A program made the translations under genes and the position numbers. Positions 16,529 through 29,348 of a DNA stretch of 64,000 bases are shown here, in pieces. The stretch comes from Clostridia bacterium (GTDB taxonomy: Bacteria; Bacillota; Clostridia; UBA1381). The stretch's first letter is position 1, and each line of letters opens with the position of its first letter. The stretch is from positions 1 through 64,000 of the forward strand of contig JAFQJD010000005.1 in NCBI GenBank assembly GCA_017415105.1. Reading direction: 5' to 3'. The notes under the pieces were generated by a model that worked only from the letters and a program-made list of their open reading frames with translations, ran no database searches and was not told the origin of the DNA.

Positions 16529-17278
16529 TCACTTTCTAAATACAAACAAATATTCATGTGCTATAAGCAAAAAATTGTATTTCACACTATTTGTTTTCCA
16601 ATATCCCGTTGCTTTACAGTTATGTTGCTCTTTTATAATAAGCTCTTTCAGTTTGAAGCCTGCACCTTCAAAAATACGCATAACATCAAACGACATAGGG
16701 ATCATATGCCCTTTTTGTCTTGTATCCCCCATAAGCACCGCACAGAACTTGTCCTTTTTAAGCACACGATAACTTTCTGTGGCAACTTTTTTCATTTCTT
16801 CAAGAAAATCTTTTACTTTTAATTGTGATAAGTCGTTTTCTATACCATCACTATACTTGATAATATCAGCATAAGGTGGGTGCGTGCATATCAAATCAAT
16901 ACTATCATCGGGTACAAAATCAAGATTTCTTGCATCACCCTTTTTGATATATACTTTCCCCTTTGCACTATCATAATCAAAAGATGTTTTTTCTCTGCAT
17001 CGTTCAAGCGCAACATCGTTCACATCTACACCGATAATATCACGATTCAATAATTTTGCTTCAACAAGAGTAGTGCCACCACCGGCAAATTGATCAAGAA
17101 CTAAATCTCCCTCTTGCGAATATCTTAATATAATGTTTCTCGGTATATAGGGAGACCAATTTCCACGCCATTTTGCATCGTGAGTTGCCCAATCCCCACG
17201 CTTCGGAAAAGACCAATGCGTAGTCATTTCAAGCTCAAAATCATCAGGCTCCCATTTTTTAATTTTCTTTTCAGCCAT
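16529..17278 (-). CDS. Second DNA amino-methyltransferase of the DpnII-type system
   Basis: A 249-residue DNA methyltransferase. The AdoMet motif I is DQFAGGGTT (about residue 62) and the catalytic motif IV is THPPYAD (about residue 131), so the order is I then IV. The X-region SPYIPRNIILRYS precedes motif I. This arrangement fits N4-cytosine or N6-adenine methyltransferases with a TSPPY-like motif. It differs from DpnA, whose DPPY motif comes first. The start codon overlaps the endonuclease stop by one base (TAATG). It presumably protects the same or a related target. Confidence 0.85.
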   Translation of the reverse strand: MAEKKIKKWEPDDFELEMTTHWSFPKRGDWATHDAKWRGNWSPYIPRNIILRYSQEGDLVLDQFAGGGTTLVEAKLLNRDIIGVDVNDVALERCREKTSFDYDSAKGKVYIKKGDARNLDFVPDDSIDLICTHPPYADIIKYSDGIENDLSQLKVKDFLEEMKKVATESYRVLKKDKFCAVLMGDTRQKGHMIPMSFDVMRIFEGAGFKLKELIIKEQHNCKATGYWKTNSVKYNFLLIAHEYLFVFRK

Positions 17279-18141
17279 TATTTGAAAACCTCATTGATTA
17301 TCCCATTTTCTAAATCTTTAATGCTATAAATGTGTTCCATAACATCAAAAGTTTCTTCGAGATTGTTTCTTGCACTTGTCCACCCTTTTCCGTCAGTAAA
17401 CCAAACAAATGTAAATCCGTCTATTGTATCGGTTTCCAAAGCAAGCGTTTTGTAACTACGAGCAGTTTCATTCAGTTTCGAGCCACCGCTGCCATAAAAA
17501 TTCGTTTCAATTCCATATATCATATTGTCTGTTTTTATAACAAAATCAAAACGCTTTTCCATTTTTCCTTGATTTGAAAGTGCTGATAAATCAATGTCCC
17601 ATTTTTCTGTAATCTGATGGATATACATTTCCTTAAAATAAGTTTCGTATTTGATAAATCCCGCCTTTTTAATAAAGCTCTCAACCAAATTTTCCATCAA
17701 ATGACCGCCACGATTTTTTCTGCCATTGGAATCAAGACCTGTTTCAACTCCGGTAGCATAATCAACAAGATTATTTACAATGTGATTAGCCATTAAATCA
17801 AACAATCCTGTTTTACGCATAAACATCTTATATTGTTCAGCAGACAGATTAGGCTTCTTAAATTGGTATGTAAATTCCCCGTCACCGTCAATAGCATAAA
17901 CTTCATTTGCTCTGACCGCTAAAAGTAATGGAATACATTTTAATATTTCGGGATATTTTTCAAGCAGAGCTTCAAATTCAGCTTCAATATTCTTTGAGCC
18001 GATAAGGGAATTTAATATATTAAGTTCCACTTTTATTCCCTCAACATTTCTGTGTACCTTTTCAAAATCAATATAGTAGCCATAATCTGCTATACTATCA
18101 CGAAAACCTGATAGCCAAGTAATAAAATCTCTATTTGCCAT
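17278..18141 (-). CDS. DpnII-family type II restriction endonuclease (GATC)
   Basis: A 287-residue protein closely resembling DpnII (DpnB) of Streptococcus pneumoniae throughout, as I remember that sequence. Shared stretches include the ALNIMNSLIGSKNI-like ELNILNSLIGSKNI, VDYATGVETGLDSNGRKNR, KRFDFVIK and GSKLNETARSYK. The catalytic PD-(D/E)xK-type core is around KRFDFVIKTDN...ETNFYGSGGSK. It should cleave unmethylated GATC. Located between the Dam-type methylase and the second methyltransferase, as in the DpnII operon. Its start is 12 bases after the methylase stop. Confidence 0.93.
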   Translation of the reverse strand: MANRDFITWLSGFRDSIADYGYYIDFEKVHRNVEGIKVELNILNSLIGSKNIEAEFEALLEKYPEILKCIPLLLAVRANEVYAIDGDGEFTYQFKKPNLSAEQYKMFMRKTGLFDLMANHIVNNLVDYATGVETGLDSNGRKNRGGHLMENLVESFIKKAGFIKYETYFKEMYIHQITEKWDIDLSALSNQGKMEKRFDFVIKTDNMIYGIETNFYGSGGSKLNETARSYKTLALETDTIDGFTFVWFTDGKGWTSARNNLEETFDVMEHIYSIKDLENGIINEVFK

Positions 18142-18153
18142 ATTCGTAACTCC

Positions 18154-19224
18154 TTAAAAATTCGATATTAAAAGTTCTTTTATTTTTCCTCTTGATTCGC
18201 TGTTGCAATTTATCATACGGGTAGCTTCAACCCTTTTTATTTTATGTGCAGAGTAGATGTTATCAAAAAAATCATCTTCTGTATTAGAATTTTTGGGATC
18301 TGAATTACTCACAACAATTTTAGCACCTTTTTTGTGCATACTCTCCACAAATTCAGCAAGTTCGATTTGTTCTTCATCATTGAATAGATTTTCCGTATAA
18401 GCTGTAAAACTCGCTGTTTCTGTCAAAGGTCTGTACGGTGGATCGAAATAAACAAAAGTATGCTCGTCTATAAATTCAGCAGACTTTCGATAATCTCCGC
18501 ATACAATCTTTACATTTTGCAGTTTCTCCGATACTGCACGGAGATTTTTTTCATCACATATCAAAGGATTTTTATATGCTCCCATAGGCACATTAAAAAG
18601 TCCTTTTTTATTGACTCTATAAAGCCCATTAAAACAAGTTTTATTAAGGAATATCATCAATGCTGCCTTTTCAATATTTTCAACTTCATTACCATTGACT
18701 TTCAAATCATTAAATCGTTCTCGTTTTGCTATATAATACGATTTTCTATCTTCTGTATCAAGTGGTACATATTCAAGCTGATATTTTTTTAGTAACTTAA
18801 TCAATTCCTCAACATTATCACGGACTATCACATAGGTATTTATGAGTTCGGCATTTATATCACTTATATATATTTCCTCTAAATTGTACTTGCTTAAAAT
18901 ATCAAAAAGCACAGCACCACCACCGACAAAAGGCTCGGCATACTTTGTAATAACACCACTATCAAAAGGATAATATTTTTCAATCTCCTTTAATAATTGC
19001 CCTTTACCGCCTGCCCATTTCAAGAAAGGTTTTACACACTTTTCGTCAGTAATATTATATCTTGTGCTTCGTGCATCAATAGGTTTTTCTGCATCTGTCG
19101 GTATAATCCACATATTACCCAACATTTGAACATTTGCTATTCTATTTTCAGAACAAAGAACAGCCACTCGTCTTTGGGATATACCCCACTTATCAGCGGC
19201 TTCTCTTGCAGACATAACTTCCAT
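18154..19224 (-). CDS. DpnM/Dam-type adenine methyltransferase with N-terminal HTH
   Basis: A 356-residue protein. Residues about 1-52 form a helix-turn-helix/excisionase-like domain (SAREAADKWGISQRRVAVLC, then NMWIIPTDAEKP). Residues about 65-350 are an alpha-class N6-adenine methyltransferase with FLKWAGGKGQLL (motif X), EPFVGGGAVLFDI (motif I) and YFDPPYRPL (motif IV). It should methylate GATC to protect against the adjacent DpnII-type nuclease. AAGGAGCG precedes the ATG. The extra DNA-binding domain is unusual for DpnM itself and may let the methylase regulate its own operon. Confidence 0.92.
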   Translation of the reverse strand: MEVMSAREAADKWGISQRRVAVLCSENRIANVQMLGNMWIIPTDAEKPIDARSTRYNITDEKCVKPFLKWAGGKGQLLKEIEKYYPFDSGVITKYAEPFVGGGAVLFDILSKYNLEEIYISDINAELINTYVIVRDNVEELIKLLKKYQLEYVPLDTEDRKSYYIAKRERFNDLKVNGNEVENIEKAALMIFLNKTCFNGLYRVNKKGLFNVPMGAYKNPLICDEKNLRAVSEKLQNVKIVCGDYRKSAEFIDEHTFVYFDPPYRPLTETASFTAYTENLFNDEEQIELAEFVESMHKKGAKIVVSNSDPKNSNTEDDFFDNIYSAHKIKRVEATRMINCNSESRGKIKELLISNF

Positions 19225-23920: not shown

Positions 23921-25435
23921 TTATATGTTTTTGTTCAGCAGTTTTTCCACCTCGGTGCACATAAAAACAAATGCTCCGGAGCCGTGCAGATTGTTCGTTT
24001 CACGCATCATATTGAAGTAAACCGATATATCGCTGCTCACACTGCTGCCCATACAAATATCATTTAAAAGCATTTCTTCAGATTCACCATAGCTTATAAT
24101 ATCAATAACCCCGACATAGCCACGGATTGCCGCACGTGCATATTCCTCTCCGGCTATACCTGTATTAACAGCTTTTGCCAGTGCATATACTATAAAACAC
24201 GAAGCGGAATTTTCAAGCCAGTTCCCTTCATAGTCACCCTTGTCAATAATCTGATACCAACGTCCGGTGTCATCCTGATACTTTATAAGTGCATTCAGCA
24301 AAGACTGTTCAATCTCTATAATCCGGTCCCGTTTGGGATGGTCAGCCGGCAAATATTCTATCATTTCCGCAACAGCCGCCACATAATATCCCATAGCTCT
24401 GCCCCATACAAGCTCTGAAAGTCCTGTTTCTCTGTCCGCCCACTCCATTGTTTTGTTTTCGTCTCTGCCGTGCCGTAAAAGCCCCGATTCTTTGTCCAAA
24501 TGAGTCTCATACATCTTCTCTGCCTGAAGTACAGCCATATCATAATATTCAGGTCTGTTTTTGAACTTCGCATACATACACATAACGGGGATTGTCATAT
24601 ACGCACCTTCAAGCTGAACGATACCCGGCATAGATTGTCTGTGCCAGAACAGTCCCTCAGATGTTGCGGGATAATCAAGGAGCGACTCCATACTGTGCTC
24701 AATAAGCTTCAGATACCGCTTATCACCTGTTGCTTCGTATAACGGGAACAGAATCCTGCTCGGCTGGCGAAAATCAAGGCATTTTACCGAAAGCCAGTCA
24801 ATAGTACCTATCATATGCTCGTGTATCTTTACATTGCCGTTATCATCAACAACCGAATCCACCCATTCTTTGATGTAGTTGAAATATTTCTTTTCACCGC
24901 ACATATTGAAAATCTGATACATACCCGACAGAAAAAGCCCCTGATGATACGAATAAAGTCCCATATCCGCAACAATATCAAAGGGTTTGAGCTTTCTCGG
25001 CTCTTTGGCAAGCATAATCGCATCACACTTTTTTCTCGCATACACAAGCGGACGCATATCCTTCATTTCAATTATTCCTTTGAATAGCTCGTAGTTATTG
25101 AAATTTCTTGTCTTATATTTTTCAGGTGACATACCTGTTTTATCTTTAAATACACGGTAGAAGGTACGTATAGAGCCGTAACCGACATCATTTGCCGCCT
25201 TGCCTAACGGCACGCCTGCCTCTATCAAAATTTTCACTTGTTCGATTCGTTTTGCCGAAAGATATTCCAAAGGAGTAAGGCCGTAGCGTTTTTTATATAC
25301 ATAGTTTATACGCATAATTGAATATCCGGTCAGCTCTGACAGAAATTCAATCGAAATCTGCTTATCTGCATAGTGCGTGTCAATATATTCTTTTATGGTT
25401 TTTATAAACTCTTTATCTTTTATATTTTCTTTCAT
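23921..25435 (-). CDS. AraC-type DNA-binding domain fused to a GH88/GH105-like glycosidase domain
   Basis: A 504-residue protein without a signal peptide. Residues about 8-112 form an AraC helix-turn-helix pair: IEFLSELTGYSIMRINYVYK, then AANDVGYGSIRTFYRVFKDK and GMSPEKYK. Residues about 125-500 look like an unsaturated glucuronyl/rhamnogalacturonyl hydrolase (GH88/GH105, YteR-like), with LDFRQPSR (Asp221), TSEGLFWH, ELVWGRAMGYYVAAVAEM, DDTGRWYQIID and NWLENSASCFIVYALAKAV. At the position where YteR has its catalytic Asp (D-G-L-Y-M) this protein reads LEGAYM (Glu276). It is either an intracellular enzyme tied to DNA or a regulator sensing unsaturated pectin oligosaccharides. Confidence 0.85.
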   Translation of the reverse strand: MKENIKDKEFIKTIKEYIDTHYADKQISIEFLSELTGYSIMRINYVYKKRYGLTPLEYLSAKRIEQVKILIEAGVPLGKAANDVGYGSIRTFYRVFKDKTGMSPEKYKTRNFNNYELFKGIIEMKDMRPLVYARKKCDAIMLAKEPRKLKPFDIVADMGLYSYHQGLFLSGMYQIFNMCGEKKYFNYIKEWVDSVVDDNGNVKIHEHMIGTIDWLSVKCLDFRQPSRILFPLYEATGDKRYLKLIEHSMESLLDYPATSEGLFWHRQSMPGIVQLEGAYMTIPVMCMYAKFKNRPEYYDMAVLQAEKMYETHLDKESGLLRHGRDENKTMEWADRETGLSELVWGRAMGYYVAAVAEMIEYLPADHPKRDRIIEIEQSLLNALIKYQDDTGRWYQIIDKGDYEGNWLENSASCFIVYALAKAVNTGIAGEEYARAAIRGYVGVIDIISYGESEEMLLNDICMGSSVSSDISVYFNMMRETNNLHGSGAFVFMCTEVEKLLNKNI

Positions 25436-25522
25436 CTTATCCGCCTCCTCCTCAATCTTATTATAACATCTTTAAAAGCAAATGTAAATTGTCAAAATAT
25501 AAAAAATAAAATCTATACCACA

Positions 25523-25574
25523 CAAAAAAAGAGCTGAGCAAACGAGCATTGTAAAAATGCTCGTTTGCAACAGC
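25523..25574 (-). terminator. Terminator of the 1212-aa esterase gene
   Basis: Minus strand CAAACGAGCATT, loop TTTAC, AATGCTCGTTTG, extended by an outer CTG/CAG pairing and followed by CTCTTTTTTTG. Confidence 0.85.
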
Positions 25575-25582
25575 CCTTGATT

Positions 25583-28500
25583 TTATTTTACGTATGCACC
25601 AAGCTTTGATGTAGAACTCTTAAGCAAATCTGTAAAGATATCAGCAACAAGCTTTGCACCGTTTTCGTTTATGTGCACGCCGTCACGTTTGTTAGACTCT
25701 ATCGTCGAGCCTGACAAATCCCAGCCGTTCTCTGCCGGATCCCATACGTAGTACTTATCACGGATTCCCTCCATTGTAGTACCTGCAGTGATTTCCGCAT
25801 TAATACGTGATGCCATTTCAGTACTTATATCAATACATACAAGACCCATATCTCCTGCGACCTTTTTTACAACTTCTTTCTGTGCACTGTATCTTGACAG
25901 ATTCGGTGCAGTTTCTGTTGCAGTTGTTGTAATCGTAGTTGTTGTGAGAATCGGGGTTGCACCACGGTCAAGAATTGCCTGTGCAATCTCTCTGTAGTTT
26001 GCCTCATATTGCTCAACTGAGATGTTATTCTTTGCATTCGCATCGTTTATACCCAGTCCGATTACAGCATAATCGCCCTCTGCTATATCATCTACAAAAT
26101 TTGCAAGTGCATCGTAGCTCGTAGAGTCGAGGTATGTAGCCGTTGTCCATCCGCCGTGTGCACGGTTTTCAATCGTTACACGATCTGAAAGGTAATCACC
26201 GACTACCATTCCCCAGCCCGTCTGCGGATATGAAGTATCGGCATAGATTGTCATAATTGAATCACCGAGCATCCACAGTGTAGTCTCAGGCATATTGGAA
26301 GAATATACCTCTGCAAGCGGTGTCATATTATCCCATACAAATACCCTTGCCTCGTATCCGTTAATATCTGACGGTAATTCAATCGGAGTGTCAAGCGTTA
26401 CCGTTCTTACCTCTTTTGACTGTGCATCGCTCTTAAGGTCTGCGGTTGATACGCTTTCAAAACGACCGTCCTTATACAATGCAACATACAGCTTTGCCGC
26501 CTTTGAGTAGTTATTGAGAATTTCAACGCCTGTAATCTTACCGTTTGCAACAAGCTCTTTTGATGTTGCACCGTCTGCTGTTACTGCTATTCCCTTTACC
26601 TCGTATGCGTTTCTGCCTAAAACGGTTACGGTAAATTCCTTTGTATCGGTTGCAGTACCTTTAGTGATTGTAGCTGTAAGGGTTGCTTTCCTGTCATCTT
26701 TTGCAAAGCTTACAACACCGTCTTTCGTTATTACGGATGCATCATTTGTTGCCCATGTGATTGTTGTGTTCTCCTCACCAGTCAACGGCAATGTTATATC
26801 CGCTGTCGCAGTTTTCTGCAACGAAAGCTTTTCCTTTGCGTATGCTACAGCATCTGCATCGGAAATAGTAATATCCTTAACAGAAAAATTATCAACATAC
26901 CATACAGAATTCATAGTCTGTGCATTTATCAAATCGTCGGCTGTACGGCTATGTATACCTATTCGCTTAACTGACGCCGGCGTTGTTGCATTTACATCAA
27001 TGTTTCCTGCATGCTTGTATGTAATACCGTTTTCTCTTGTAACATCAGTTTCATACTTACCTGTATCAAGGTCTAAAACGAGTACCACATCATACCACTC
27101 GTATGTTGCATTCTCTCCCATCGGTAAATAAACTTCGTTTGTATTGTAAGTATCAGCAAGATACATACGGGCATTTCCGTGGAATATAAAATCAATACAG
27201 GATCTGCTCCAGCCATTGCCTAAATCATCAATCCAGATTGTCATACGCTGCTTGTCGCCCGTTCCGAACATCATTTTGGCACTGATTTGAATTTTGCCGC
27301 TTGTTATCGGTTGGTTACCGTCTGTATTGGGGTCTGAATCAACAACGAACATTGCCGCATCTCTACGGCTCGGTCCGTTTACACCTGTCTGAACCACGCC
27401 ATTAAGGTACCATGAGCTTCCGTTAATTCCGTAATATCTCTCAACCTTAACAACCTTATTTGATTCATTTGTCGGGTCTGTTGCTACTGTATAGTTTGCA
27501 CCCTTACTTGTATTTCCATCTTCTCCGACAGGATTTGTCCAGCCGGTATATCCTGAAATATCCGTTCCGTTTGCTATTGAATCAAAGCTTTCATCCACAT
27601 ACACACGCTTACTGTCAGCTTTAACAACAAAGTCGTATCTGTATTTTTCACCGTTTACATAGGCAGTAAGGCTGACTGCTCTGTCTTTTACACCTTTAAC
27701 GATTTTACCGTCAGCAGTTAAAATTCCGTTATCTGATGTTCTCCACTCCACAGCATGTTCATTGCCACCAAATATAATACTTGCAGGAAGAGTTATATTG
27801 CTTGCAAGTGCATCCATACTCTCGCCGCCAAGACCATTGAGGAGTGCTTTGGTAAGCTCACCAAGAACGGTTATTTCAAAGGTTCTTTCATCGCCTGTTG
27901 ACTGAGCCTTCGCAGTAAGGGAAACTTCCCTATCCTCAATACCCTCAACAACTGTACCGTCATGTCCGATAACGGATGTATCTGAAGATGTCCATGTAAG
28001 TGTATGAGCTTCTCCGTCAACCGTTACACTTTCGGGCAAGGTCAGATTATCTGTAACCTCCCGTGCCGGCTGATTTGTTACATCAGACCAGTTAAAATCA
28101 ATAAAGATACTCGGGTCTTCCCATGTTTTTTCCCATAAAAGCACAGGATAGCCGTCATTTACCGGCTCTAATGCGTTATCCTTGCAATAGTTTTCATTAT
28201 CAACAAGTGCAGTCTTTATTGCATCTTTTGTTGCACCTATTGTTCCCGGCTCTGTTCCTTGAGATACACTAGTCACATTTGTATTTGTTGAATATACATC
28301 CGTCGCACTTAACAGATATTTAATGCTGTCAGTTGCTGAGAAATACATAAATGCAAATTGTTTTTGTCCTTGCATCGTTATATCGGCAGTATAACATTTA
28401 TCAAACACATACTTAATTGAGTACTTTAAGCTGCTATAGTCAGGATGTCTATCTATTCCCACAAATCCACCCTGATATAGCACTGTGGCTGTTGAGGCTG

Positions 28501-29221
28501 TTGCTACAGTTGTTCCTGAAACATAACAGTTTGTAAATGTCGCTGTTTTACGTGTTGAAGAACTGCTTCCTGTCACATGCTGACATACACCTGCACCGGC
28601 AAATCCGCCGCTTACTTTTTCGGATGTACCGGATTGATTATTGGAAACAACAGAGTCTCTTACAAAAACATTTGTATAACTGCCGCCTCTGACATATGCA
28701 ATAACTGTTGCCGCACAATAACATCTTGTTGCACCTGTCGTTCCGTCAGGATAACGGGCATTGTTATAGCTTATATTAGCATTTGTAAATCCAAGATCAG
28801 ACACTTCAGTATCATCTGAACCGCTGCCTATAAAGCCTATTGCAGCATAAGAACAGGTGATTGTCATATTTTTAATTATATGACCGTTACCATCAATCTT
28901 ACCGCTGAAATACTTTGTTGTAACATTTGCAATCGGTACCCAGTCGTGACCTGAAAGGTCAATGTCGGCTGTAAGCTCATAGTATGTATCAGCACATACG
29001 TCACCGTCAGCAGATGCATTTGCATCAGCCGCAATCTTTGCAAGCTGACTTGCAGTTGCAATTTCGTACGGGTCTGCTTCTGTTCCGCTACCTCCCGCAA
29101 ACGAGGTCGCCACAATACCTTCATCTGTCCAGTATGTTGTAGCCGCTGATACCGCAGTCGGAACAACTACCATCGAAATGAGTATTGCAAAAGTAGTCAG
29201 TAAACTAAATACTTTTTTCAT
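25583..29221 (-). CDS. Large secreted multidomain protein with C-terminal SGNH (CE12-like) esterase
   Basis: A 1212-residue exported protein. It has a signal peptide (about 1-27, ending VSAA), a beta-helix/GLUG-like region (about 40-370; GTEADPYEIATASQL, GHIIKNMTI), three bacterial Ig-like repeats of the TLTWTSSD / ITWATND kind (about 375-455, 460-540, 790-860), and a LamG-like region between them (about 545-780). The SGNH domain (about 980-1205) has WMLGDSIM, GLGIND and DGVHINENGA. This resembles rhamnogalacturonan acetylesterases (CE12), so deacetylation of pectin is likely. It lies next to the GH105-like regulator. No SLH or sortase anchor is seen. AGGAGG precedes the ATG. Confidence 0.82.
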   Translation of the reverse strand: MKKVFSLLTTFAILISMVVVPTAVSAATTYWTDEGIVATSFAGGSGTEADPYEIATASQLAKIAADANASADGDVCADTYYELTADIDLSGHDWVPIANVTTKYFSGKIDGNGHIIKNMTITCSYAAIGFIGSGSDDTEVSDLGFTNANISYNNARYPDGTTGATRCYCAATVIAYVRGGSYTNVFVRDSVVSNNQSGTSEKVSGGFAGAGVCQHVTGSSSSTRKTATFTNCYVSGTTVATASTATVLYQGGFVGIDRHPDYSSLKYSIKYVFDKCYTADITMQGQKQFAFMYFSATDSIKYLLSATDVYSTNTNVTSVSQGTEPGTIGATKDAIKTALVDNENYCKDNALEPVNDGYPVLLWEKTWEDPSIFIDFNWSDVTNQPAREVTDNLTLPESVTVDGEAHTLTWTSSDTSVIGHDGTVVEGIEDREVSLTAKAQSTGDERTFEITVLGELTKALLNGLGGESMDALASNITLPASIIFGGNEHAVEWRTSDNGILTADGKIVKGVKDRAVSLTAYVNGEKYRYDFVVKADSKRVYVDESFDSIANGTDISGYTGWTNPVGEDGNTSKGANYTVATDPTNESNKVVKVERYYGINGSSWYLNGVVQTGVNGPSRRDAAMFVVDSDPNTDGNQPITSGKIQISAKMMFGTGDKQRMTIWIDDLGNGWSRSCIDFIFHGNARMYLADTYNTNEVYLPMGENATYEWYDVVLVLDLDTGKYETDVTRENGITYKHAGNIDVNATTPASVKRIGIHSRTADDLINAQTMNSVWYVDNFSVKDITISDADAVAYAKEKLSLQKTATADITLPLTGEENTTITWATNDASVITKDGVVSFAKDDRKATLTATITKGTATDTKEFTVTVLGRNAYEVKGIAVTADGATSKELVANGKITGVEILNNYSKAAKLYVALYKDGRFESVSTADLKSDAQSKEVRTVTLDTPIELPSDINGYEARVFVWDNMTPLAEVYSSNMPETTLWMLGDSIMTIYADTSYPQTGWGMVVGDYLSDRVTIENRAHGGWTTATYLDSTSYDALANFVDDIAEGDYAVIGLGINDANAKNNISVEQYEANYREIAQAILDRGATPILTTTTITTTATETAPNLSRYSAQKEVVKKVAGDMGLVCIDISTEMASRINAEITAGTTMEGIRDKYYVWDPAENGWDLSGSTIESNKRDGVHINENGAKLVADIFTDLLKSSTSKLGAYVK

Positions 29222-29348
29222 TATATTTACCTCCTCGAAATTATTTGTTGAGTTTATATTCTAATTATACCAATATGATTTCCGGATGTAAATTGACAAT
29301 ATTTAAAATTCCACAAAAGGCACATTGAAAACGGTATTCTATATATAG

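Follow-up and report, generated by a model that had tools for sequence, protein, structure and literature searches.

A gene joining an AraC-type DNA-binding domain to an altered GH105 domain: a candidate pectin-fragment regulator in a Clostridia bacterium

The fusion gene and its surroundings

The window, that is, the whole 64,000-nucleotide stretch of DNA analysed here (the first 64 kb of contig JAFQJD010000005.1 of the Clostridia bacterium assembly GCA_017415105.1), contains a secreted esterase gene followed, on the same strand, by a gene encoding an AraC-type helix-turn-helix (HTH) and a GH105-like domain in one frame. The genes, the parts of the fusion protein and the signals between the genes are as follows.

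25583–29221, minus strand: 1212-aa secreted esterase of the GDSL type, containing aBig_2 repeats, the predicted target (Pfam and PDB search)
25540–25566, minus strand: hairpin with a T-rich stretch after it, in the gap between the two genes, a likely terminator (noticed by eye; absent from the scanner output)
25460–25488, minus strand: promoter of the fusion gene, TTTACA-17-TATAAT with an extended -10 (11 of 12 consensus positions)
23921–25435, minus strand: AraC HTH and GH105 fusion gene, 504 aa, ATG start
25100–25435, minus strand: N-terminal AraC-type double HTH, residues 1–112 (HTH_18, 57.1 bits)
25067–25099, minus strand: linker, residues 113–123, including AAAGGA (25081–25076) 5' of the internal ATG
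25064–25066, minus strand: internal ATG (M124), a possible second start yielding free GH105
23924–25066, minus strand: GH105 (YteR-like) domain, residues 124–504 (Pfam 293 bits, YteR alignment, AF2, Foldseek)

The fusion gene is a single open reading frame of 504 codons without an internal stop, and its codon use and GC content are ordinary compared with the rest of the 64-kb window. Residues 32–109 match the Pfam family HTH_18 with 57.1 bits against a cut-off of 33.6, the HTH_AraC score being 42.8 bits, which places the N-terminal part among the AraC/XylS double HTHs. Residues 155–499 match Glyco_hydro_88 with 293 bits against a cut-off of 26.6. The E-values of the domain and PDB matches exclude a chance match. 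Thus an earlier note made from the letters of this DNA, which had described an AraC HTH pair joined to a GH105-like enzyme, is borne out.

The full-length start is preceded by an AGGAGG site and the near-consensus promoter. As the frame is open throughout and these signals serve the full-length start, an artefact of gene prediction is ruled out. The same note had named a start codon between the domains as a ground for rejecting the fusion. Such a codon does exist, the ATG of M124, but the frame is open across it and the full-length start has its own promoter and Shine-Dalgarno box. AAAGGA lies 9 nt upstream of M124, which is where the separate GH105 genes begin in the tandem loci described below. 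This site is weaker than both the AGGAGG of the full-length start and the GAGGAGG of the tandem GH105 gene. Free GH105 is a possible additional product of translation from M124.

The best PDB match of the esterase is YxiM (E 1e-9), and the match to rhamnogalacturonan acetylesterase (RGAE) has an E-value of 0.0016. The earlier note had described this neighbour as secreted and rhamnogalacturonan-esterase-like; its likeness to RGAE is weak and that to YxiM is better. The genome (1.8 Mb) is pectinolytic, with Pectate_lyase_2 matches on contigs C11, C21, C25 and C38 and one KduI match. It contains two other GH105 genes, both with Asp in the catalytic column, and at least 25 AraC HTH matches. Elsewhere in the window, positions 16529–19224 contain a DpnII-type restriction system consisting of a D12 methylase, a DpnII endonuclease and an N6/N4 methylase.

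The GH105 fold and its altered pocket

The best PDB relative of the fusion protein is YteR of Bacillus subtilis (1nc5; phmmer E 1.5e-77, residues 129–500 aligned), and the alignment is ungapped around the Asp143 motif. The following residues were assigned from it.

24608–24610, minus strand: Glu276, replacing the catalytic Asp143 of YteR (alignment and homologue columns)
24773–24775, minus strand: Asp221, equivalent to YteR Asp88, retained (alignment)
24614–24616, minus strand: Gln274, replacing the pocket residue Trp141 (alignment)
24386–24388, minus strand: Tyr350, replacing the pocket residue Trp217 (alignment)

The GH105 hallmark Asp143 is absent from the fusion protein. Its replacement by Glu276 and the retention of Asp221 had both been read from the sequence before and agree with the YteR alignment, which offers no intact catalytic Asp elsewhere. 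The column of Glu276 contains Asp in 57 of 58 sampled rows, the remaining row having a gap and likely being a regulator frame caught up among the 58 (L005b). Asp also stands at this position in 82 of 82 further GH105 matches from the loci of the best 80 of 589 relatives, scanned with a pattern that permitted Asp or Glu as well as Trp or Gln.

Nine residues of YteR, Tyr41, Asp88, His132, Trp141, Asp143, Met147, His189, Trp211 and Trp217, are given as conserved and involved in catalysis in a paper on a clostridial GH105 (PMC4528949). All nine of this set are invariant in 46 of 46 GH105 homologues. The fusion protein has the equivalents of Tyr41, Asp88, His132, Met147, His189 and Trp211, and three of the nine are altered (W141Q, D143E, W217Y). 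Further departures are Arg for the common Trp at residue 324 (W191), Met instead of Arg at 476 and Asn instead of Asp at 482, as well as Ser for Thr at 464, which by a hand count on the alignment is YteR position 333, within the gate loop 331–335. Overall, no other of the 47 rows is as altered: the fusion differs at 21 of 80 strongly conserved columns, the next row at 12 of 81. The alignment used for these column counts and for structure prediction comprised 46 of 74 intact GH105 frames; HTH-only rows, being misplaced, were left out.

The AF2 model built with these homologues has a pLDDT of 86.1 overall, with most of the GH105 domain above 92. In the HTH part, modelled from an alignment free of HTH rows, it is 52–71, and the model does not give the mutual arrangement of the two domains. 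A single-sequence prediction (pLDDT 57.5) was set aside. The top Foldseek match of the model is the YteR D143N/dGalA-Rha complex, with a TM-score of 0.96 by target length and an rmsd of 1.5 A, so that the predicted domain has the six-alpha-hairpin barrel of GH105. Thus the fusion protein resembles YteR (1nc5, 2gh4) over the whole domain, at 1.5 A and 38% identity, and differs from it in Asp143 to Glu, Trp141 to Gln and Trp217 to Tyr and in the N-terminal AraC HTH. Judged from the alignment and the model, the fold is retained, part of the catalytic pocket is lost and most sugar-facing residues are held. With these changes, the fusion protein may have lost hydrolysis. However, D143E alone is no proof of inactivity: Glu can act as a general acid, and thus activity may persist.

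A promoter block and a candidate regulon

The promoters of the fusion and esterase genes have 19 of 22 bases in common, in a block that ends at the -35 box and whose two copies are candidate operators.

25482–25503, minus strand: candidate operator TTTATATTTTGACAATTTACAT, overlapping the -35 box of the fusion promoter (promoter comparison)
29286–29307, minus strand: candidate operator TTTAAATATTGTCAATTTACAT at the -35 box of the esterase promoter, TTTACA-17-TATAAT (motif, and promoter at 29264–29299)

None of 1000 Markov simulations reached 19 of 22. The 14-mer TTGWCAATTTACAT has exact copies only at these two promoters in the 1.8-Mb genome; as it was derived from the two sites, this indicates rarity, is partly circular and is not an independent recurrence. 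The esterase, the predicted target of the fusion protein, has this specific promoter block in common with the fusion gene.

A search with the 22-mer allowing three mismatches yielded four more places in the same genome. One of them precedes a GH105 gene on contig C39 (promoter at C39:231–274) whose product retains the catalytic Asp. Behind this gene lie two ABC permease genes and a binding-protein-like gene, the product of the last being 53% identical to the binding protein of the tandem pectin cluster of genome G001, described below. When upstream regions were compared with the fusion promoter, the C39 GH105 gene and the esterase gene both scored 19 of 22 and the next region 17; the 119 regions compared were those of the window and of stretches of the same genome, with the fusion itself and the esterase included and the C39 contig present because of its GH105 gene.

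The fusion, esterase and C39 promoters are also alike in geometry, TTGWCAATTKACA-N17-TATAAT. This pattern has six exact sites in 70 genomes of the family: the three in this genome, one upstream of the GH105 orthologue in the congener G034, and two elsewhere, one of which precedes a gene that is cysteine-synthase-like as judged from its start. The reversed motif, used as a control, has no site in the same 70 genomes. In G001 and G003, the tandem loci contained no site with zero or one mismatch.

Two sites in this genome have one mismatch. On contig C4, one lies upstream of the gene for a 413-aa protein whose start is signal-like. The other, on contig C7 from 49392 onward (L234:3893–4819), lies upstream of a gene that is cut at the contig end and whose secreted product begins like the esterase. 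An AraC gene is situated near the site on C7. A one-mismatch promoter, TTGACTATTTACAAA...TATAAT, is conserved in five congeners (loci L209, L212, L214, L218 and L231 of G033, G037, G041, G047 and G045, respectively), and a near-identical promoter, TTGTCAATTGAAACATGTTAAT.CATGGTGTATAAT, was observed in two congeners (L213, L229 and L226; G040 twice and G033).

Origin and possible role of the fusion protein

Among the matches listed, the GH105 domain most identical to that of the fusion (46%) belongs to G001, a genome of another genus (g2). The gene begins where a gene encoding a 734-aa AraC regulator ends, in a different reading frame, and the same regulator-GH105 pair was found in G003. The G001 cluster consists of genes for a binding protein (SBP), a membrane-type AraC regulator, the GH105 enzyme and Pectate_lyase_2, the first three of which are also present in G003. 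The two best non-self HTHs among the matches listed from 95 genomes, scoring 76.7 and 75.2 bits with 61.6 bits for the next, are those of the G001 and G003 regulators, each ending at a GH105 gene start. In the HTH tree, they form a supported clade with the HTH of the fusion (97/89). In the GH105 tree, the fusion is on a long branch and groups weakly with two paralogue pairs (87/86), not with the tandem enzymes; the tree test does not reject a clade uniting the fusion with the latter (p 0.085). Its end branch, 1.12, is the longest among the 64 rows of a quick GH tree.

Among the matches listed, the closest HTH and the GH105 of highest identity are thus encoded side by side in a different genus, so that a regulator-GH105 tandem probably gave rise to the fusion, with loss of the membrane sensor. 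Gene order in the tandem is like the domain order of the fusion, and the spacing is near-equal. However, the tandem consists of separate genes in different frames, its GH105 has Asp, and its regulator retains an extended N-terminal portion, with hydrophobic stretches, that is missing from the fusion. The two frames may have been joined by an indel, the N-terminal part of the regulator being lost, and M124 may be the surviving start of the former GH105 gene, with a weakened Shine-Dalgarno box.

As the note had suggested, the same fusion was looked for elsewhere. Among the matches listed from 70 family-level and 95 order-level genomes, no other single frame covers both domains. Nor was a second fusion seen in 391 genomes of the class and 398 of the phylum (E <= 1e-75, up to three candidates per genome) or in 80 named loci (the best 80 of 589 relatives). 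Of 346 plasmid records matched, none had 80% query coverage. Viral contigs, and a scan of genome contigs with the fusion protein alone as the query, yielded no relative. The nearest congener by the MATE protein, G034 (79%), has the MurJ and MATE genes with no fusion after them, and seven congener MATE loci, with flanks of at most 1.5 kb each, contained no match to the fusion or the esterase. No AraC fusion to GH88, GH105 or a glycoside hydrolase is described in the titles and abstract starts of the literature searched. Thus a sensor domain of this sort in an AraC regulator was found in no other record searched.

Four candidates for a second fusion were rejected. A match to residues 9–504 in Paenibacillus camerounensis (L103) covers two genes, encoding a 277-aa AraC protein and a GH105 enzyme. 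A match to residues 39–502 (L112) is a separate GH105 gene followed by a 64-aa HTH fragment. The 600-aa L138 frame contains GH105 with cytidylate kinase and no HTH. A row of G055 spanning residues 7–498 has four internal stops and was taken as adjacent genes. Two of these loci are observations in their own right. The cytidylate kinase-GH105 frame (L138:3296–5095, an uncultured Clostridia MAG), either a real fusion or an assembly artefact, also has GH105 in frame with an upstream gene, but the partner is not DNA-binding and the catalytic Asp is present. The AraC HTH fragment of an Anaerocolumna MAG (L112:5129–5323) lies directly 3' of the GH105 gene and is perhaps the remnant of a regulator.

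If Glu276 still acts as acid/base, the protein could be a bifunctional trigger enzyme that hydrolyses an unsaturated uronide and regulates by substrate occupancy. This would agree with the retained fold, with the six retained residues of the nine listed in PMC4528949, including the equivalents of Asp88, His132 and His189, and with the chemical nearness of Glu to Asp. However, the equivalents of Trp141 and Trp217 are gone, W191 is Arg and the gate-loop Thr333 is Ser, Asp is otherwise universal in the catalytic column, and two other GH105 genes of the same genome have it, which makes this unlikely. Another possibility is that the promoter block is owned by another regulator, the fusion protein acting elsewhere or nowhere. 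Indeed, the block precedes the GH105 gene of G034, though the fusion is not seen there among the matches listed (the genome is 69% complete), and many AraC proteins are encoded in the genome studied here. On the other hand, autoregulation is usual among AraC regulators and the block sits at the fusion gene's own promoter, which counts against another owner; we regard this possibility as quite unlikely.

Still less can be said for M124 as the main start, giving a free GH105 of shifted specificity with the fusion as a by-product. The AAAGGA site and the tandem-type position of this ATG are consistent with it, but the site is weaker than the alternatives, a strong promoter match precedes the full-length start and pocket residues are lost, so that it is improbable. 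A decaying relic, truncated and fused and now drifting, would explain the longest end branch, the largest number of altered conserved columns and the absence of the fusion beside MATE in seven congeners that retain the MATE gene. However, 504 stop-free codons at deep divergence, an intact HTH score, ordinary codon use and a strong promoter with a block common to other pectin genes make this extremely improbable.

The reading that we favour, and consider probable, is that of an autoregulated soluble one-component regulator of pectin-fragment metabolism with a repurposed glycosidase as the sensor. Two lines point to it: the pocket changes extend beyond Asp143 while the modelled fold is kept, and the block is common to the esterase promoter. 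The DNA-binding part would be what remains of a membrane-type AraC regulator, its C-terminal HTH, and the sensor would be the neighbouring GH105 enzyme, joined in frame once the regulator's own sensor part had been lost. Imported unsaturated galacturonyl oligosaccharides may bind the altered pocket. As most sugar-holding residues are kept and the catalytic Asp and two Trp are lost, the pocket most likely holds an unsaturated pectin oligosaccharide without turnover, or with slow turnover. Occupancy would alter the affinity of the HTH for TTGWCAATTKACA, a sequence abutting or overlapping the -35 box of the fusion, esterase and C39 promoters. We infer both binding events, as well as the direction of control: occlusion, with the ligand relieving repression, has a small edge over activation, since the promoters are near-consensus with an extended -10. 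The regulated set would comprise the fusion gene, the secreted esterase, and the transporter and intact hydrolase on C39.

In the AraC proteins Rob and Ada, the HTH is likewise joined to a domain that either recognises a ligand or acts upon it, and Rob, like the fusion protein, is HTH-first. To our knowledge, none of XylR, Rob and Ada has a GH105 barrel. XylR of E. coli (PDB 4fe4, 4fe7), which is among the PDB matches, resembles the fusion protein in combining an AraC HTH with a ligand-related domain, but its sensor is not a GH105 barrel. The fuller proposal, on which we are evenly divided, is that a glycoside hydrolase barrel turned into an AraC ligand sensor when adjacent operon genes fused and the catalytic acid was lost, so that a cytoplasmic reader replaced a membrane-type sensor and came to control the esterase, the transporter and the intact sister enzyme via a common -35 site.

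A tandem locus of ancestral type, the fused gene, its altered pocket and a candidate regulon can all be seen in related genomes. If the proposal is true, this would be a clear intermediate in the conversion of a catabolic enzyme into a transcription factor, and the bacterium would have a soluble switch responsive to pectin fragments, with a concrete candidate operator.
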